A stretch of DNA of 40,667 nt from Rhodopseudomonas sp. BR0M22 (lineage in GTDB: Bacteria > Pseudomonadota > Alphaproteobacteria > Rhizobiales > Xanthobacteraceae), in NCBI RefSeq assembly GCF_010907035.1, contig NZ_QUMK01000052.1:1-40667 (forward strand), given 5' to 3'. Shown piece after piece: positions 7,584-40,667 of the stretch. Positions within the stretch are counted from its first letter, which is position 1; each line of letters begins with the position of its first letter. Under the pieces are notes generated by a model. The model did no database searches and had not been told where the DNA came from. It worked only from the letters and a program-made list of their open reading frames with translations. Position numbers and translations under genes: made by a program.

Positions 7584-8609
7584 TCAGGCCGGCTTCAGGC
7601 GGTAATGACTGACGCCCCACTCGTCGCCGTCGGCGTAGCCGAACAGGCCGGAAGTGGCGAGGAAGAACCAGCGCCAGCGCCGCATCCACAGCGCGGTGTC
7701 GTCGCCGTAGACCGGCCGCAGGATCGTTTCGATATCACCCCGGTGACGATCGAAATTGACCAGCCAGTCTTCCGCCGTCCGCTGGTAGTGACGACCGCTC
7801 CAGCGCCATTGCTCGTCGATCTTGAACAGATCGGCATATTGCTGGATCAGCCGGTGGCTCGGCATCACTCCCCCGGTGAAGAAGTGCTGTGCGATCCAGT
7901 CGGCGCGATCGGCGCGGTCGAACAGATAGGCGCCGCGGCGATGGCTGAAGATATGCATGAAGAACAGCCCGTCCGGCTTCAGCCAGCCGCGGATCCGGGT
8001 CATTAGCTTGCGCCAGTTCATCATGTGCTCGAACATCTCGACCGAGACCACCCGGTCGAATGTCTCGTTGGGATCGAAGTCGTTCATATCGCAGGTAACG
8101 ACGCGCAAGTTGGTCAACCGCCGCGCAGCCGCTTCGGCTTCGATGTACTGACGCTGCGACGCCGAGTTCGACACCGACAGGATGCGCGCGCCGGGGAAGC
8201 GCTGGGCCATCGCCAGTGACAGCGAACCCCAGCCGCAACCGAGTTCGAGGATCGCCTGGCCGTCGCGCAGATCGGCGTGCTCGATCGTCAGCCGCAGCGC
8301 CTCCGCCTCGGCCTGCGCCAGATCGGTCTCGGCCTCGCGATAATAGCAGGACGAGTATTTGCGATGCGGCCCGAGCACCTTGCCGAAAAACGCCGCCGGC
8401 ACTTCGTAATGCTGGGCGTTGGCCGCATCGGTGTGTTCGGCCACCGCCCGCTCGGCCATCGCCTGCGCGAATGCGGCGTCGGTCGCCGGATTGCCCTGCG
8501 CCATCGTGGCGGCGGTCCGCGCGCACAGCGCCCTGATACCGAGGCGGATCACCGCGTCCGGCAGCGGCACCCGCTCGGCGATGTCGATCAGCGAGGAAAG
8601 CGCGGTCAT
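7584..8609 (-). CDS. Cyclopropane-fatty-acid-synthase-like SAM methyltransferase
   Basis: This 341-residue class I SAM-dependent methyltransferase belongs to the CFA synthase/coclaurine N-methyltransferase superfamily. The SAM motif LELGCGWGS is at residues 121-129, and QHYEVPAAFF near residue 66 is the substrate-side signature of the family. The usual helical N-terminus is present and there is no signal peptide. Its ATG overlaps the stop of the DUF1295 gene by 4 bp (ATGA), so translation is tightly coupled. In other proteobacteria this pair occurs in clusters that modify unsaturated membrane fatty acids, often under photo-oxidative stress regulators. A lipid substrate is therefore likely, though an amine methyltransferase cannot be excluded. 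Confidence 0.85.
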   Translation of the reverse strand: MTALSSLIDIAERVPLPDAVIRLGIRALCARTAATMAQGNPATDAAFAQAMAERAVAEHTDAANAQHYEVPAAFFGKVLGPHRKYSSCYYREAETDLAQAEAEALRLTIEHADLRDGQAILELGCGWGSLSLAMAQRFPGARILSVSNSASQRQYIEAEAAARRLTNLRVVTCDMNDFDPNETFDRVVSVEMFEHMMNWRKLMTRIRGWLKPDGLFFMHIFSHRRGAYLFDRADRADWIAQHFFTGGVMPSHRLIQQYADLFKIDEQWRWSGRHYQRTAEDWLVNFDRHRGDIETILRPVYGDDTALWMRRWRWFFLATSGLFGYADGDEWGVSHYRLKPA

Positions 8610-9433
8610 GATGCGTCTGGGCGCCGGGGCGGTAGCGGAAAGAACATCGAGGTGCGGGCCTGATAATCGCGATAACGGTCACCGCGCGATTTCAGCATCT
8701 GTTCTTCGAGCGGTGGAATGCCGGTGACGTACACCAGGATCCAGTACATGAACAGCGGCGCCAGCAGCGCCGCGTACCCCCAGAGATAAGATAGCGGCTC
8801 GGCGAACGGGATCGCGATCACCGGATAGGCCAGCCAGCCGAACCACTGGAAGAAGTAGTTCGGATGCCGCGACCAGCCCCACAGACCGGCGTCGCACACC
8901 TTGCCCTTGTTGGCCGGGTCTTCGCGGAACGCCTTGAGCTGGGAGTCGGCCAGCCCCTCCCCGGCGATCGCGGCGATCAGAATCAGCACGCCGAGATAGT
9001 CCTGCAGCCGCAGGCCGCCTGCCGGCGCATGGGCGGCGACGAAGATCGCAAACACCAGCGGGATCGTGCCGTAGGCCTGGTTCTGCAGGAAGAAGAACAT
9101 CTTCTTCGGCGCGTCCGCACCCCACTGGGCCGCATAGGCGGCATAGCGCGGATCGTCGGTGATGTGCCGGGTGCGGGCCGCGATGTGCGAGCCGAGCCGG
9201 AGCGACCACGCCGCGACCAGCACCGCCACCAGCCATTGCCGCGCATCGGGCGCCGCGCCGCCAATCGGCCACAGCGCAGCGGCTGCGCCGGTGAGCCCGA
9301 GCGAGAACGTCCAGATAGTGTCGACCCAGCCGGAATTGCCGGTCCGCTGCTGCACCACCCAGGCACCCGCCATCAACGCCGCCAGCGCCACCGCGATTGC
9401 CGCCATCGCCCCGAGATACATACCCGTCATCAT
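8606..9433 (-). CDS. DUF1295 integral membrane oxidoreductase-like protein
   Basis: This 275-residue polytopic membrane protein belongs to the DUF1295/steroid 5-alpha-reductase-like family. Hydrophobic segments are visible near residues 5-25, 34-57, 69-84, 111-131, 140-160 and 201-243. The family signature GLWGWSRHPNYFFQW, a cofactor-binding region related to isoprenylcysteine methyltransferases, lies around residue 188. The start at 9433 (MMTGMYLGAM) follows GGGTGG; the frame stays open to 9538 but that stretch is not membrane-like. It is the first gene of a two-gene operon with the CFA-like methyltransferase, and may reduce or otherwise modify the same lipid. Confidence 0.85.
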   Translation of the reverse strand: MMTGMYLGAMAAIAVALAALMAGAWVVQQRTGNSGWVDTIWTFSLGLTGAAAALWPIGGAAPDARQWLVAVLVAAWSLRLGSHIAARTRHITDDPRYAAYAAQWGADAPKKMFFFLQNQAYGTIPLVFAIFVAAHAPAGGLRLQDYLGVLILIAAIAGEGLADSQLKAFREDPANKGKVCDAGLWGWSRHPNYFFQWFGWLAYPVIAIPFAEPLSYLWGYAALLAPLFMYWILVYVTGIPPLEEQMLKSRGDRYRDYQARTSMFFPLPPRRPDAS

Positions 9434-35898: not shown

Positions 35899-37296
35899 AT
35901 GCAATCGGCGATGACGGGACACAACCGGCTGGCAGCCGCCGCGCTCGCGGCATGGTTCGGCGGCGTGGCGCTTTCGGCCACGGCGGCGCAGGCGCAATCC
36001 GGCAATCCTCTGAACTTCCTCGACAGCATTTTCGGCAATCCGTCGCCGAGCCGCCCGGCCGCGCCCGGCGCTGGCGCGCCCTCCGGCAGCAGCTCCGCCG
36101 CCCAGCCATGGAGCGGCGAGGACGGGGCTTCGGGCCATCCGCTGATGACCGCCGCCGCGATCCGCGAGGCCGCGGCGAATTTCGACAATTGCGTCGCGGC
36201 GATGTGGCCGGACGCGGCGCGCCGCGGCATCTCGCGGGAGTCGTTCGAGCGCTACACCGCCGGCCTGTCGCCCGACCTGCGGCTGATGGACCTGATGGAT
36301 TCGCAGCCCGAGTTCACCAAATCGATCTGGGATTATCTCGATATCCTGGTCAACGACACCCGCCTCGCCAGGGGCCGCGAAATCCTGGCGCAGTACAAGC
36401 CGCAGTTCGACGCCGTCGAGCGCGCCTACGGCGTCGACCGCTACATCATCGCGTCGATCTGGGGCATCGAATCGAACTACTCGACCCAGATGGGCGATCG
36501 CTACGTGGTGAATTCCACCGCAACGCTGGCCTGCGTCGGCCGCCGCCAGGGGTACTTCAAGGACGAATTCCTCACCGCGCTGGAGATCCTGCATCACGGC
36601 GACCTGCGTCCCGAGCAGCTGCGCGGCTCATGGGCCGGCGCGTTCGGCCCGACCCAGTTCATGCCGACCGCATTCAAGCGCTTCGCGGTCGATGCCGATG
36701 GCGACGGCCGCAAGGACGTCGTCGACAATCCCTACGACCTGATCGCCTCGACCGCCAACAACCTGAAGAAGGACGGCTGGCAGACCGGCCAGACCTGGGG
36801 CTACGAGGTCGTGGTGCCGCGCGGCTTCAACTACATGCTGGCCGACCGCCGCCAGACCCAGACGCTGGCGCAATGGGAGCAGATGGGCCTGCGCCGCGCC
36901 GGCGGCCAGCCGTTCCCGCGCGCGAGCGAAAAGGCCTATCTGCTCGCCCCCGCCGGCGCCGCCGGTCCCGGCTTCCTGATGCTCACCAATTTCCGGGTGA
37001 TCATGAAGTACAACCCGGCCGAGGCCTATGCGCTGGCGATCGGCCATTTCGCCGACCGGCTGCGCGGCGGCGCCCCGTTCGTCCAGGACTGGCCGCGCCA
37101 GGAGCGCGCCCTGTCCCGCACCGAAAAGCTGGAATTGCAACAGCTCCTCGCCCAGCGCGGCTTCTACCGCGGCACCCCCGACGGCCAGTTCGGCAGCATG
37201 ACCCGCGAAGCGCTGCGGAATTTCCAAGCCTCGATCGGCGCACCGGCCGACGGGTTTGCGACGGGGGAAATGCTGGAGAGACTGAGAGGAAAGTAG
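35899..37296 (+). CDS. MltB-type lytic murein transglycosylase
   Basis: This 465-residue periplasmic enzyme has a signal peptide (about 1-33, ending AQAQ), a proline/serine-rich linker (45-75), the SLT/MltB catalytic domain (about 85-390) and a C-terminal peptidoglycan-binding domain (about 405-463, LQQLLAQRGFYRGTPDGQFG). The catalytic Glu191 is in IASIWGIESNYS, and the GAFGPTQFMPTAFKRFAVD segment is typical of MltB. It cleaves glycan strands to 1,6-anhydro-muropeptides. No lipobox is present, so it is a soluble form. ATG 35911 is an alternative start. It is the last GC-rich gene before the AT-rich island. Confidence 0.92.
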   Translation: MQSAMTGHNRLAAAALAAWFGGVALSATAAQAQSGNPLNFLDSIFGNPSPSRPAAPGAGAPSGSSSAAQPWSGEDGASGHPLMTAAAIREAAANFDNCVAAMWPDAARRGISRESFERYTAGLSPDLRLMDLMDSQPEFTKSIWDYLDILVNDTRLARGREILAQYKPQFDAVERAYGVDRYIIASIWGIESNYSTQMGDRYVVNSTATLACVGRRQGYFKDEFLTALEILHHGDLRPEQLRGSWAGAFGPTQFMPTAFKRFAVDADGDGRKDVVDNPYDLIASTANNLKKDGWQTGQTWGYEVVVPRGFNYMLADRRQTQTLAQWEQMGLRRAGGQPFPRASEKAYLLAPAGAAGPGFLMLTNFRVIMKYNPAEAYALAIGHFADRLRGGAPFVQDWPRQERALSRTEKLELQQLLAQRGFYRGTPDGQFGSMTREALRNFQASIGAPADGFATGEMLERLRGK

Positions 37297-37320
37297 CACG
37301 CAAGAGAGGGTGGAAGCAGC

Positions 37321-37351
37321 TTGCACTCTTCAGTATACTGCAACCTATAAG
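37321..37351 (+). promoter_or_regulatory. Candidate promoter facing the left inverted repeat
   Basis: TTGCAC (37321-37326) and TATAAG (37346-37351) are separated by 19 bp, a little long, in the AT-rich 93 bp between the transglycosylase stop and the first island gene. The T7 run at about 37354 follows. It points into the cassette and would drive whichever gene lies next to the left repeat. Confidence 0.4.
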
Positions 37352-37375
37352 TGTTTTTTTGATTTTGCAACTGGT

Positions 37376-37392
37376 CATAACTTGGAATTATG
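37376..37392. repeat. Left copy of a 17-nt inverted repeat, Xer-like crossover site
   Basis: CATAACTTGGAATTATG is repeated exactly in inverted orientation at 39630-39646. It consists of CATAA, a 7-nt core CTTGGAA, and TTATG, the inner-arm bases found in Xer/dif sites. The last three bases are the start codon of the FAD-protein gene. Outer flanks (GGT and CGT) do not match the other copy, so identity is confined to the core and inner arms. Confidence 0.75.
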
Positions 37393-38568
37393 CGTCGGTT
37401 CGATGTCGTCGTGTGTGGAGCAGGAATCTCGGGTTTGTTGATAGCCTCGGAGCTCTCCCGGTTCTGTTCCGTTCTAGTCATTGAGAAACAGCCTCGATCT
37501 GATTGCTCGAGAAAATTCTGGCTGACTAAGAAAGATTGTCTGACGAGCAATATGGAGCTGATCGACTGTGTGGACTCAGAGTGGGACCAGCTAGATTTTG
37601 TTGCAAACGACAGGTCCACCTTCACCGCGCGAGGGCAATACATCCTCTGGGATACTAGGAGGCTGGAAAGCTACCTAATCAATCAAATTCACCTCAATAA
37701 CTCTGAGGTGCAATATCAGACCAGACTGTATGGCTATCAACCATTGCAGGATTCAATTAGTGCCTTTGCTAATTCTGAAACATTCAATACATCGCTAATA
37801 ATAGACTGTATGGGGCATTCATCACCGATCGTAAATGCGACAAACTCAGTCAAGATCCTGGGATATCATCATCTGTACGGTCGCACCTTGGGGTTGCGAC
37901 GTCCGATCGCCCCGATCGCTGTAGACAACGTGATTCTGTCGGATCATCCCTTGTTCCTTGAAATTATGCCGAAGTCTGGCGGCACGGCTAACGTAGTTAT
38001 GATATCCCCATCTGCCTCCACAAAATTGAGCAAGGTGCTGGTCGACGATTTTAATTTCGCAATCACGAAGACGCACTATGCTGACGTCTTTTATCCTCTC
38101 AGAAGCAGCGAAGAATTACAGGGAATTGTTCCAATCGGAAGGATGAGAAAGAGGTCGCTCGATAGAATCTTGTTCTTTGGAGAAGCCGGACAAATACATC
38201 CCGCAGCGAGTTGCACCTGCCTAAATCGAATGCTGAAAGTCTATAAAGAAACGGCCAAAAATATAGAGCATCGACTGCTAACTAACTGCGTCTCTGCGGT
38301 AGGCCTGTCCGATGCAATTCCGCAAACAAGCCTATTTTCACAGCGATTTCATCAGAATCTTTTTCGCCAATTGAACTGCTGCTCTTCGGATCAAGTTCGC
38401 TCGATGGTTGAGCTGCTGCACTGCTTGAATGAAAAATCTCTGGATGATTTGATCTTTGGTGAGGTTGGATTTGGGCACTTCATCCAGACCGATAATTTGA
38501 GGCGGGTTACACGGGCACGCAATACTATCTGGCTTGCCCCGTTGCTTCAGACGCTTTTCAATTTGTGA
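37390..38568 (+). CDS. FAD-dependent oxidoreductase, lycopene-cyclase-like
   Basis: The 392-residue protein opens FDVVVCGAGISGLLIASELS, a Rossmann FAD-binding motif (G-x-G-x2-G at 10-15) with the acid IEK at the end of the second strand. A second FAD contact is FFGEAGQIHPAASCTCLNRM (about 258-277), the position where lycopene cyclases have G-x-A-G...HP-(S/A)-T/S. The last 60 residues also resemble the cyclase C-terminus. Codon use is AT-rich, unlike neighbours, indicating transfer. No carotenoid genes are nearby, so cyclase activity on lycopene is doubtful. The start codon lies inside the inverted repeat with a weak GGA ribosome site. Its 3' end overlaps the convergent membrane gene by 11 bp. 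Confidence 0.75.
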   Translation: MRRFDVVVCGAGISGLLIASELSRFCSVLVIEKQPRSDCSRKFWLTKKDCLTSNMELIDCVDSEWDQLDFVANDRSTFTARGQYILWDTRRLESYLINQIHLNNSEVQYQTRLYGYQPLQDSISAFANSETFNTSLIIDCMGHSSPIVNATNSVKILGYHHLYGRTLGLRRPIAPIAVDNVILSDHPLFLEIMPKSGGTANVVMISPSASTKLSKVLVDDFNFAITKTHYADVFYPLRSSEELQGIVPIGRMRKRSLDRILFFGEAGQIHPAASCTCLNRMLKVYKETAKNIEHRLLTNCVSAVGLSDAIPQTSLFSQRFHQNLFRQLNCCSSDQVRSMVELLHCLNEKSLDDLIFGEVGFGHFIQTDNLRRVTRARNTIWLAPLLQTLFNL

Positions 38569-39628
38569 TCCCGATTATCCCGTCTAAGAATCTTCTTACC
38601 TCTTTGTCGTTAAGCCACAAGAACTGGAGGATCGCGACAATCACGAGAGCGATAGAAGGCGAGTCCTTTAAGGTTAGAACCGGAAGAACTCTGTTGTTCT
38701 CAACGATCTTCTCCTTCAGTTCCGTTGCAGCCTTGCGGATTTCGATGACTGCAGGTTCGGATTTTTTTAGATCCACACTGTCGAGAATTGGCTGGGTGAG
38801 GCGGTCTATCTCGGATACCTTGCGCTTGATGCTGAAAAGATAGATCTGGCGAATTACGTGCTTCATGTAGAAGCTCGCAAAGAGTGCCAACGGAAGAAAA
38901 ACAACTATTGGATAAAGAAGCAAGTTCCTCACTGCTTGGTATTTTCCATCCTTCCCCACGAAGAGTGCAGCAAAATCCCCTATGAGTTCGCTCGGCGCCT
39001 CGAATGTAAAGTTAGCGGTCAGGGTGCCTCGGAAGGAGAGGTAAAGCGCCCCGATGGCTGTGAAGAGGAGAACCGAAAGATAGAGGCTAAAATTCTCCAA
39101 TTCGACTATGTTGACGTTATCCTGCAGGTCGACATCAGCAATTGAGAATTCAAGCGCCTGGAACACTTGAAGCGAATGAATGGTGTAGGCGACCATCAAT
39201 CCGCCAGCATAAAACATGAGCGATGATGTTACCCACAGGTAGTATTTCGGGACCCCCGTCATGGGGTATCCGCACATATAGAGAATTAGTCCTCCAACTA
39301 CAAAAATTGGAACTGCAATTTTCTGCTTGTTCCAGAAGGAGTAGAGTTGCTCCAATTTTGTTGCAACCAATGCAATCGATGTCGGCTTGATATCTAGGAT
39401 ACCAAAGATCAGGAAATGAAACTGCTGACGAAAGGTGGCTACAGAGAATTGCAGAGCCCCAAATCCTGCAGTAGCGACAAGCAAGCCGTCCCAATAATAT
39501 AAGTAAGACATCAGGAAAAGGTGGGCTTGATCCTTTTGAAAGATAAGGGTCGCCGCAAAGCCCGCGAGAAAGGCCAGAAAGCTGATAAGCAGCCAACTTG
39601 CGTATGCCTTAAGCAGGGTAAAGAACAT
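38558..39628 (-). CDS. AT-rich seven-helix membrane protein, unknown family
   Basis: The 356-residue product has hydrophobic segments near 9-30, 45-70, 98-116, 127-150, 180-200, 232-258 and 330-346, with a long charged cytoplasmic stretch (about 262-325, many K, E, I and D) before the last helix. I recognise no family. The start at 39628 (MFFTLLKAYASW) begins inside the right crossover site; the frame is open to 39706 but the extra residues are not membrane-like. It runs against the FAD-protein gene and overlaps it by 11 bp. Base composition matches that gene and not the chromosome, so the two probably arrived together. Confidence 0.7.
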   Translation of the reverse strand: MFFTLLKAYASWLLISFLAFLAGFAATLIFQKDQAHLFLMSYLYYWDGLLVATAGFGALQFSVATFRQQFHFLIFGILDIKPTSIALVATKLEQLYSFWNKQKIAVPIFVVGGLILYMCGYPMTGVPKYYLWVTSSLMFYAGGLMVAYTIHSLQVFQALEFSIADVDLQDNVNIVELENFSLYLSVLLFTAIGALYLSFRGTLTANFTFEAPSELIGDFAALFVGKDGKYQAVRNLLLYPIVVFLPLALFASFYMKHVIRQIYLFSIKRKVSEIDRLTQPILDSVDLKKSEPAVIEIRKAATELKEKIVENNRVLPVLTLKDSPSIALVIVAILQFLWLNDKEVRRFLDGIIGITN

Positions 39629-39649
39629 CCATAATTCCAAGTTATGGAT
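39627..39649. repeat. Right copy of the inverted repeat, Xer-like crossover site with 8-bp arms
   Basis: The 17-nt match to the left copy is at 39630-39646, on the opposite strand. Here the palindromic arms extend further: ATCCATAA (39627-39634) and TTATGGAT (39642-39649) flank a 7-nt core. Paired arms of this size with a 6-8 nt core are the normal form of tyrosine-recombinase sites. The ATG of the membrane-protein gene (39628-39626) lies at its left edge. A tyrosine recombinase gene starts 128 bp to the right. Confidence 0.75.
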
Positions 39650-39654
39650 AGCAG

Positions 39655-39673
39655 ATCCGATTCGGATGCATCC
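39655..39673. promoter_or_regulatory. Overlapping dyads between cassette and recombinase
   Basis: ATCCGA-T-TCGGAT (39655-39667) and GGATGCATCC (39664-39673) are perfect small palindromes that overlap, 5 bp outside the right crossover site. They may be accessory binding sites for the recombinase or an operator for its gene. The remaining 100 bp before the recombinase show no other structure. Confidence 0.4.
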
Positions 39674-39777
39674 ACACCCGTCTTCAACCGATAACCGTGA
39701 ATGCAAGTTCGTCCACGTGGGCGGTGGCGTAGATGAAGCTATTGGGTCATTTTCGTTTGCTCGTTGAGGGGAGCGAA

Positions 39778-40667
39778 ATGGATTTCCATAGATCGATTGC
39801 TGGCTTTCTCGATCATTGTTCTGTGGAGAGACAGCTAGCGGAATGTACGCTGCAGGCCTATAGCTATGACTTGGCGGACTTTGGCGCTTGGTTGCAAACC
39901 CAATTTATTGATCGCACATTCTTGGATTATTTAGCACTGTCGCCTGCTGTAGAGCTTTGCGACTCCACTGCAAATCCGATCAAAACCGACCATCTTCGCG
40001 CCTATCTCGAACACATGACGGAGCGAAAGCTCTCCGCCGCGACAATCCGGCGGCGGCTTGCGTGTCTGCGCGCATTCTTCCGTTTTCTCGCCGATCGCGA
40101 TGGCACGCCGAATCCGTTCGATGGCTGGCGGCTGAAGCTGCCGAAGCGGAAGCGGTTGCCGCGGACGTTGTCGCGGGACGAGACCACGCGGCTTTTGAAA
40201 TCAACGCGAGTGCCGGGCGCGGCGCGGCATGCGGCGCCGGATGCGCCGTCGCTGTGCACCGAGATCCGACTGATGATCGCGACCGGAATCCGGATCGGCG
40301 AGTTGTGCAAGATCATCAGCAGCGATGTCGCCAGCGACGGCGCGGCGATCCGGATTCACGGCAAAGGGGCGCGCGATCGCGTCGTCTACGTCACCGATGC
40401 GGCGCTCCGCACCGAGTTGCGCAAGCTGGCGGCGCAGCGGCAGCGCATGCTCGGCGGCGACGGACCGCTGTTCGTCAATCGCAACGGCACCAAGCTGCGG
40501 CCGCATTCGTTCCGCACCAAGCTGCGCAACTTCGCCGGCCAGGCGGGCGTGCGGCGGCGGGTGACGCCGCACATGCTGCGCCACACCGCCGCGACGCTGC
40601 TGATCGAGAGCGGCGTCGACATCCGGATCGTGCAGCGGCTGCTTGGCCACTCCAGCATCGCCACCAC
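39778..40667 (+). CDS. Tyrosine recombinase (XerC/XerD-like), 3' end outside window
   Basis: The open frame from ATG 39778 (GAGGGGAG upstream) runs to the window end, giving 296 residues. An N-terminal SAM-like core-binding domain (about 5-115, with CTLQAYSYDLADFGAWL and TIRRRLACLRAFFRFL) precedes the catalytic domain. Arg172 is in ATGIRIGEL, Lys196 in HGKGARDR, His265 and Arg268 in HMLRH, and His291 in LLGHSS; the nucleophilic Tyr would lie about nine residues beyond the end. The first 65 codons are AT-richer and the rest is strongly GC-rich, so the gene looks mosaic. It lies beside the inverted repeats it may act on. Confidence 0.9.
   Translation, partial: MDFHRSIAGFLDHCSVERQLAECTLQAYSYDLADFGAWLQTQFIDRTFLDYLALSPAVELCDSTANPIKTDHLRAYLEHMTERKLSAATIRRRLACLRAFFRFLADRDGTPNPFDGWRLKLPKRKRLPRTLSRDETTRLLKSTRVPGAARHAAPDAPSLCTEIRLMIATGIRIGELCKIISSDVASDGAAIRIHGKGARDRVVYVTDAALRTELRKLAAQRQRMLGGDGPLFVNRNGTKLRPHSFRTKLRNFAGQAGVRRRVTPHMLRHTAATLLIESGVDIRIVQRLLGHSSIAT

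Follow-up and report, generated by a model that had tools for sequence, protein, structure and literature searches.

What are two convergent genes doing between perfect inverted repeats, beside a tyrosine recombinase, in a Rhodopseudomonas genome? The question is raised by contig NZ_QUMK01000052.1 of Rhodopseudomonas sp. BR0M22, whose 40,667 nucleotides (nt), all of them analysed, are called the window here. An earlier note, made from the letters of the window, had proposed an invertible switch, in which flipping exchanges the genes that stand behind a left and a right promoter. Our answer keeps the switch and changes its promoters. Positions 37376-39646 are very probably a two-gene cassette that is inverted site-specifically by the adjacent recombinase, and inversion would choose which gene is driven by one fixed promoter at the end distal to the recombinase.

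The locus consists of the following parts.

35899 to 37296, forward strand: fixed neighbour outside the segment, a lytic transglycosylase with a peptidoglycan-binding domain (Pfam SLT_2, E 3.5e-104), the conserved anchor of the slot.

37297 to 37375, forward strand: left outer flank, from the transglycosylase stop to the site; putative promoter region with TGGAAG-N17-TATACT (z 0.64, weak in this locus alone).

37376 to 37392, forward strand: left, recombinase-distal recombination site CATAACTTGGAATTATG, ending in the start codon of the next gene.

37390 to 38568, forward strand: cargo gene A, a flavin adenine dinucleotide (FAD) protein of 392 amino acids, of the Lycopene_cycl or FAD-oxidoreductase type (Pfam PF05834, E 6e-10), presumably ON as assembled.

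38558 to 39628, reverse strand: cargo gene B, 356 amino acids, no Pfam family, about six hydrophobic stretches (counted on a 360-amino-acid frame from an upstream TTG), presumably OFF as assembled.

39630 to 39646, reverse strand: right, recombinase-proximal site, an exact inverted copy of the left one.

39647 to 39777, forward strand: right outer flank of 131 nt, without inward promoter-like signal, holding CAACCGATAACC.

39778 to 40665, forward strand: tyrosine recombinase, the presumed invertase (Pfam PF00589, E 2e-29), incomplete here, as the contig stops short of its catalytic Tyr; 310 amino acids in complete relatives.

The 17-nt repeat of the earlier note proved to be exact: CATAACTTGGAATTATG occupies 37376-37392 on the forward and 39630-39646 on the reverse strand without a mismatch. 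No further copy with up to three mismatches occurs in the window (shuffles give 0.01), and this is the sole exact pair in the 5.29-Mb genome, where a reversed-pattern control has 0 matches. The two inverted sites have CATAA/TTATG inner arms and a spacer of 7 nt. Flanking inverted repeats with an identical crossover region, as expected for inversion by a tyrosine recombinase, are found in the window and in its relatives. The genes do converge, with a 3' overlap of 11 bp, as had been claimed. That both sites abut start codons is true with a qualification: the ATG ending the left site starts the FAD gene and the membrane-protein ATG lies just inside the right site, but the ATG of the right site itself is not in frame with it. 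The recombinase does follow just outside the right site; the frame that aligns to its relatives begins at 39778, which makes the distance 131 nt and not 128. In between, at 39685-39696 and about 40 nt from the right site, lies CAACCGATAACC, a possible regulator or accessory site, variants of which were seen by eye in the six other Rhodopseudomonas loci. The guanine and cytosine (GC) content of the segment is 47%, against 64-73% in its flanks.

Does such a segment flip? The support for a two-gene segment inverted by the adjacent recombinase comes from relatives, in which the orientations are not all alike. The same pair, a methyltransferase and its partner (49% and 58% amino-acid identity), is found in two species, G181 and G200, in opposite order relative to the fixed neighbours. 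A second case lies within one assembly. G380, a 7.84-Mb genome of the same family in one contig, has the locus at both contig ends, and the end of the contig repeats its start up to the last base, so that this circular chromosome was left untrimmed. Over the 20 kb compared, the two ends show 0 mismatches (indels only), save for one inverted block: 1,748 bp with two genes, bounded by 24-bp repeats and 100% identical in inverse orientation. Both orientations are present in one culture of this relative, and hence in one population. A true duplication is unlikely to give an overlap that begins at the very first base of the contig and ends at its very last. A third pair, of an ATP-grasp and a STAND gene, also occurs in both orders relative to the recombinase, with the ATP-grasp gene distal in G345 and the STAND gene distal in G438, in pMRAD01 and in G433 (a weak ATPase match).

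Assembly breaks may point the same way. Among multi-contig genomes anchored by the recombinase, 10 of 38 site occurrences, from 8 of 21 genomes, are no more than 150 nt away from a contig end, where about 0.33 are expected; the count includes G653 (two contigs, four sites, none near an end) and leaves out the G383 contig start, which has arms ATAA/TTAT only, and genomes found by site pattern alone (G803, G858, G1052, G775, G885 and others). Such breaks fit mixed orientation, but long inverted repeats would give them too, and either could cause the 99-nt end that two flank contigs of G803 share. They suggest that cultures may often hold mixed states, overlooked so far as contig ends.

One could also argue that the orientations are independent insertions of a mobile element, a transposon or integrated cassette, whose terminal inverted repeats lie beside a recombinase by chance. 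The low GC content would suit such an element, as would the differing cargo in the same slot and the scarcity of relatives: among 198 family genomes, gene A has one in G053 only (E<=1e-10) and gene B has none in other genomes (E<=1e-5). We consider this very improbable. Every site-positive genome of the genus has exactly one pair, always at this recombinase, and one cargo type has different spacers in G181 and G200. G380 holds the locus in both orientations with no other base change, and insertion alone leaves unexplained why start codons lie in the repeat. Moreover, the sole relative of gene A is itself flanked by sites beside the same kind of recombinase; the earlier note had looked to homologues without flanking repeats as evidence against a switch, and none appeared in these genomes.

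If the cassette does flip, the adjacent recombinase would pair the identical inverted sites and turn the 2.2-kb segment around. The promoter would lie beyond the recombinase-distal end of the segment and read inwards across the site, the end of which serves in many cases as the start codon. It would drive only the gene at that end: the FAD protein in the assembled orientation, the membrane protein after inversion. The second gene, at the recombinase side and in the opposite direction, would be silent or weakly expressed. Given the convergent genes and their 3' overlap, transcription that runs on past the active gene would be antisense to its silent partner. Judging from this arrangement, cells probably express one partner or the other.

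Whether there is one promoter or two can be asked of the flanks. We scored inward sigma70-like signals in the 100 nt outside each site of the 22 tabulated cassettes (21 plus that of pMRAD01, with G380 counted once) against dinucleotide shuffles, using a hand-entered E. coli-type matrix on related loci that are not independent. Distal flanks show an inward signal (mean z 0.85, p 0.0015, n=22), with z 0.54 in the 14 cassettes upstream and 1.38 in the 8 downstream of the recombinase. Proximal flanks have a mean z of -0.39 (p 0.14; paired distal versus proximal, p 0.005), and the outward controls give z 0.29 (p 0.35) and 0.10 (p 0.92). A swap of two promoters, the alternative in line with the earlier note, would have promoters of different strength or regulation in the two flanks, so that both genes are always expressed, at different levels. 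In its favour, the proximal gene of downstream cassettes lies shortly behind the recombinase stop and could be co-transcribed, and some proximal flanks (G681, G602 upstream) score well. Nevertheless, over the 22 cassettes only the recombinase-distal flanks look promoter-like. One promoter for two genes fits better, and we regard a swap between two promoters as unlikely.

How does the locus look elsewhere in the genus? Transglycosylase DNA was found in all 16 Rhodopseudomonas genomes and the recombinase in seven, at 82-90% identity in six of the 15 others (E<=1e-30). All seven recombinase-bearing genomes have an inverted site pair, and left sites equivalent to the window's are present in the six other carriers. 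Six of the 16 genomes, all recombinase-bearing, each have one forward and one inverted match to CATAACNNNNAATTATG, and the nine congeners without the recombinase have 0 matches; the seventh carrier, G199, has a variant site pair. The slot is assembled across in five genomes (G000, G181, G200, G108, G156) and holds two convergent low-GC genes of four unrelated kinds, while in G199 and G202 the assembly is broken between transglycosylase and recombinase. The spacers, TTGG in the window, CCCC in G181, TCGG in G200, G108 and G202, and TACG in G156, are identical at both ends of each locus and vary between loci. The cassette would be one version of an exchangeable module, in which recombinase and slot stay and the gene pair is replaced between strains.

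The window recombinase is a mosaic that fits such a replacement. Its first 200 bp or so have 58-62% identity to the other six, whose mutual average there is 72-84%, and the remainder has 75-90%; the 5' end (39778-40000) is AT-rich and diverged, the rest GC-rich and conserved. We infer that homologous recombination replaced the cassette, one crossover falling within the recombinase gene. The mosaic 5' end could also mark a vestigial switch, locked in the window strain while relatives flip. A C-terminus beyond the contig end and intact assembly at the window's sites would agree with that. On the other hand, the sites are perfect, both cargo frames are open, and the recombinase is open over 296 of about 310 amino acids up to the contig end at 40667. 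A locked copy seems to us rather improbable, and the window's cassette presumably still flips. The contig ends (40665-40667) near LGHSSIATT inside the recombinase gene, and the G156 and G181 contigs end in the last part of the same gene.

Which recombinase would do the work? The co-occurrence with the sites suggests the adjacent one. A complete relative (P0004), aligned to XerD (solved structure 1a0p), has R, K, H, R, H and Y all present at the positions that we take to be catalytic. The nearest NCBIfam models are XerC and XerD, both below their curated cut-offs, for a scanned protein that is incomplete at the contig end; the tyrosine-type DNA invertase models are far weaker (1e-11 versus 1e-54), and the integron-integrase model reaches 85.9 bits with this incomplete protein, below its cut-off of 265. 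In a maximum-likelihood tree (midpoint-rooted, with long-branch warnings for L173, L169 and pMRAD01 among others), 31 rows labelled as site-linked form one 100/100 group apart from 10 XerC/D-like rows, which are so named by similarity only and include the window genome's own second copy. This group also contains 9 rows labelled "no site", a label under which L172 and Ruegeria were entered with one site each. No second close copy of the recombinase was shown in G000. In G053 (L105, about 8373-8667), a relative of the recombinase has about 290 extra bases between its N- and C-terminal parts.

The host's own XerC and XerD might recombine the sites, with the adjacent recombinase being incidental. 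The dif site has the same CATAA...TTATG inner arms, and XerC and XerD are the nearest models even if their cut-offs are not reached. However, the sites accompany this recombinase and are found in 0 of 9 congeners without it, though XerC/D-like genes are frequent in the family. The protein falls below the cut-offs of the XerC and XerD models, incomplete as it is, and stands apart in the tree. A dependence on host Xer proteins is thus hard to credit. The term "dif-like", used in the earlier note, is apt for the inner arms, but not for the spacer, which has 7 nt instead of 6, nor for the recombinase, which stands apart from the XerC/D-like sequences tested; nor is the locus a single site with a 6-bp centre.

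Two wider genome samples, one of the family and one of the order, contain 32 recombinases of this type, and sites are found with 28 of them. At E<=1e-40 there are matches in 70 of 391 family genomes; the 21 at E<1e-60 were taken as this recombinase, a cut chosen after seeing the gap to matches of about 40% identity. Of the other 49 matches, nine were scanned (loci of about 3.9 kb each) and contain no site. Both sites are present at 12 of the 21 family recombinases (over two contigs in G199 and G202), and five have one site near a contig end. In 397 order genomes there are 11 matches besides the window's (E<=1e-55), all 11 with at least one site (one only in G551 and G631), which in 10 of them lies directly behind the recombinase stop codon. 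Plasmids add 15 records with a relative; among five examined, pMRAD01 has a site pair and pSD25 one site. When 385 class genomes were scanned for the site, 32 of them yielded 37 matches in all, against 9 for the control, so that many of the single matches are probably chance; same-spacer inverted pairs occur in three genomes (the window's own, G796 and G858) and not in the control. Despite its site pair and a 35% recombinase, G796 was not counted as a cassette, since only short frames start from its sites. In viral contigs the site pattern matches once in each of 39 stretches and never as a pair, which gives no link to phages. The switch would occur in several families of the order to which the window belongs and on a Methylobacterium plasmid, and some further genomes of the class have sites or inverted pairs.

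Five loci (L127, L128, L129, L135, L097) have sites both upstream and downstream of one recombinase, the downstream pair being complete in L127 and L128 only. The spacers differ between the two sides in 5/5, which would make these loci a natural example of insulated recombination sites. Locus L168 (G858) is a contig of 3,726 bp that is almost exactly one invertible segment, STAND-like plus ATP-grasp, with site ends.

What does the switch carry? The 22 cassettes hold two opposed frames, the second being short in both G681 cassettes, and the frames overlap at their 3' ends in 16/22. The site's ATG is the start of 30 of the 44 cargo genes (by the longest-frame rule, or by annotation for pMRAD01). 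The gene pairs are of at least nine kinds, most of which combine an enzyme with a membrane, STAND-ATPase or pentapeptide partner.

FAD protein and membrane protein: two cassettes.

Methyltransferase and partner with two hydrophobic stretches: three cassettes.

Pentapeptide and aminotransferase-like protein: five cassettes, the pentapeptide gene distal in 5/5.

Cyclopropane-synthase-like and membrane protein: two cassettes.

ATP-grasp/D-Ala ligase-like and AAA_16 STAND-like protein: G345, G438, G433 and pMRAD01, and also G858 outside the 22.

SHMT and AAA_16/TPR protein.

Glycosyltransferase/methyltransferase and AAA_16 protein.

Spermidine synthase and a partner without a label.

PAP2 and membrane protein.

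The STAND label was given by domain type and length, and the B genes of G602 and G179, which have no Pfam match, were placed by BLASTP. Among the cassettes compared by BLASTP, a shared gene comes with a shared partner; the exceptions are the membrane partners in the cyclopropane-synthase type and the G433 STAND gene, for which only size and type agree. Pairs are kept even across distant genomes, where a recognisably shared gene has a partner that is related or of the same size and type. This cohesion implies that the products of a pair belong with each other, yet the switch would rarely express both of them, which is a paradox. One could go further and see a widespread two-state switch with a logic like that of mating-type idiomorphs. 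A metabolite- or lipid-modifying enzyme and the receptor or effector that matches it, be it a STAND ATPase, a pentapeptide or a membrane protein, would be mutually exclusive and split a clone into "makers" and "responders", and strains would swap whole matched pairs and keep the switch. This extension is speculative and, in our view, improbable.

Several observations weigh against an invertible cassette with one distal promoter, the two limits of the promoter scan among them. The window's own distal flank is not significant (z 0.64), and some distal flanks (G602, G433) score below their own shuffles. No assembly break falls at the window's sites, which are 3.3 and 1.0 kb away from the contig end. 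Recognisable sites are missing from 4 of the 21 family recombinases (G383, G389, G037, G272) and from 3 of the 5 plasmid loci. Finally, 14 of the 44 cargo genes, gene B included, start elsewhere than at the site's ATG. For these reasons we hold the reading to be very probable rather than certain.

The proposed switch can be compared with several known systems. It resembles Xer/dif in its recombinase family by sequence, the six catalytic residues and the CATAA/TTATG inner arms. It differs in having an inverted pair rather than a single site, a variable 7-nt spacer where dif has 6 nt, a recombinase in a distinct tree group, and inversion in place of dimer resolution. Integron gene cassettes likewise place exchangeable cargo beside a tyrosine recombinase, whereas here two convergent genes are bounded by identical inverted sites. 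The vsp and vpma loci of Mycoplasma are families of related lipoproteins, whereas each cassette has exactly two unrelated genes and two sites. What these loci share with the cassette, according to the relevant passages of PMC3047005, is that inversion brings a silent frame to a unique promoter. The logic resembles that of the Ureaplasma loci mba/UU376 and UU172/UU171, in which two neighbours of opposite orientation are expressed in alternation through DNA inversion at short inverted repeats, with Xer-type tyrosine recombinases suspected (PMC3047005). Those genes encode surface antigens of Mollicutes, the inversion sites lie partly inside genes and make chimeras, and the passages on them mention neither a fixed unit of recombinase and cassette nor an exchange of unrelated pairs (PMC3047005). 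In fimS with FimB and FimE, in C. difficile switches and in gut invertons, a site-specific recombinase also inverts DNA between short inverted repeats and causes phase variation, but it flips a promoter or leader, according to the sections concerned (PMC9993118, PMC7446863, PMC11892184), whereas the cassette flips whole genes past an apparently fixed promoter.

Whole swappable gene pairs would be what is new. If our reading is true, phase variation can come from such pairs and not from flipped promoters or surface antigens. The searched sections of a tyrosine-recombinase classification (PMC8138268) and of a phase-variation review (PMC11868660) mention nothing similar, a genome-wide inversion survey reports none in its 4 alphaproteobacterial samples in the part concerned (PMC5903667), and a family of switches with exchangeable enzyme and partner was not found in the literature searched, most subscription papers being outside that search.

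The functions given for both cargo proteins are putative. P0001 and P0002 have no match in plasmids, P0002 has none in viral contigs, and patterns from P0001 found no relative in genome contigs. A sequence search of the PDB with P0001 alone returned nothing, and with P0002 seven weak matches, the best being designed helical filaments; a profile of the two FAD proteins finds distant flavoproteins there (best E 3e-5). The profile of the methyltransferase partner has weak GNAT matches only (best E 0.21), so that "GNAT-like" is a label given by eye. Among the PADLOC models of anti-phage defence, the window proteins have one match only (E 0.04) and the cargo proteins of 10 relatives reach E 0.0027 at best, too weak to call any of them a defence protein. 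The upstream cassette of L128 (G681) contains a 491-bp inverted repeat and a short second frame, and may hold degenerate or self-duplicated cargo.

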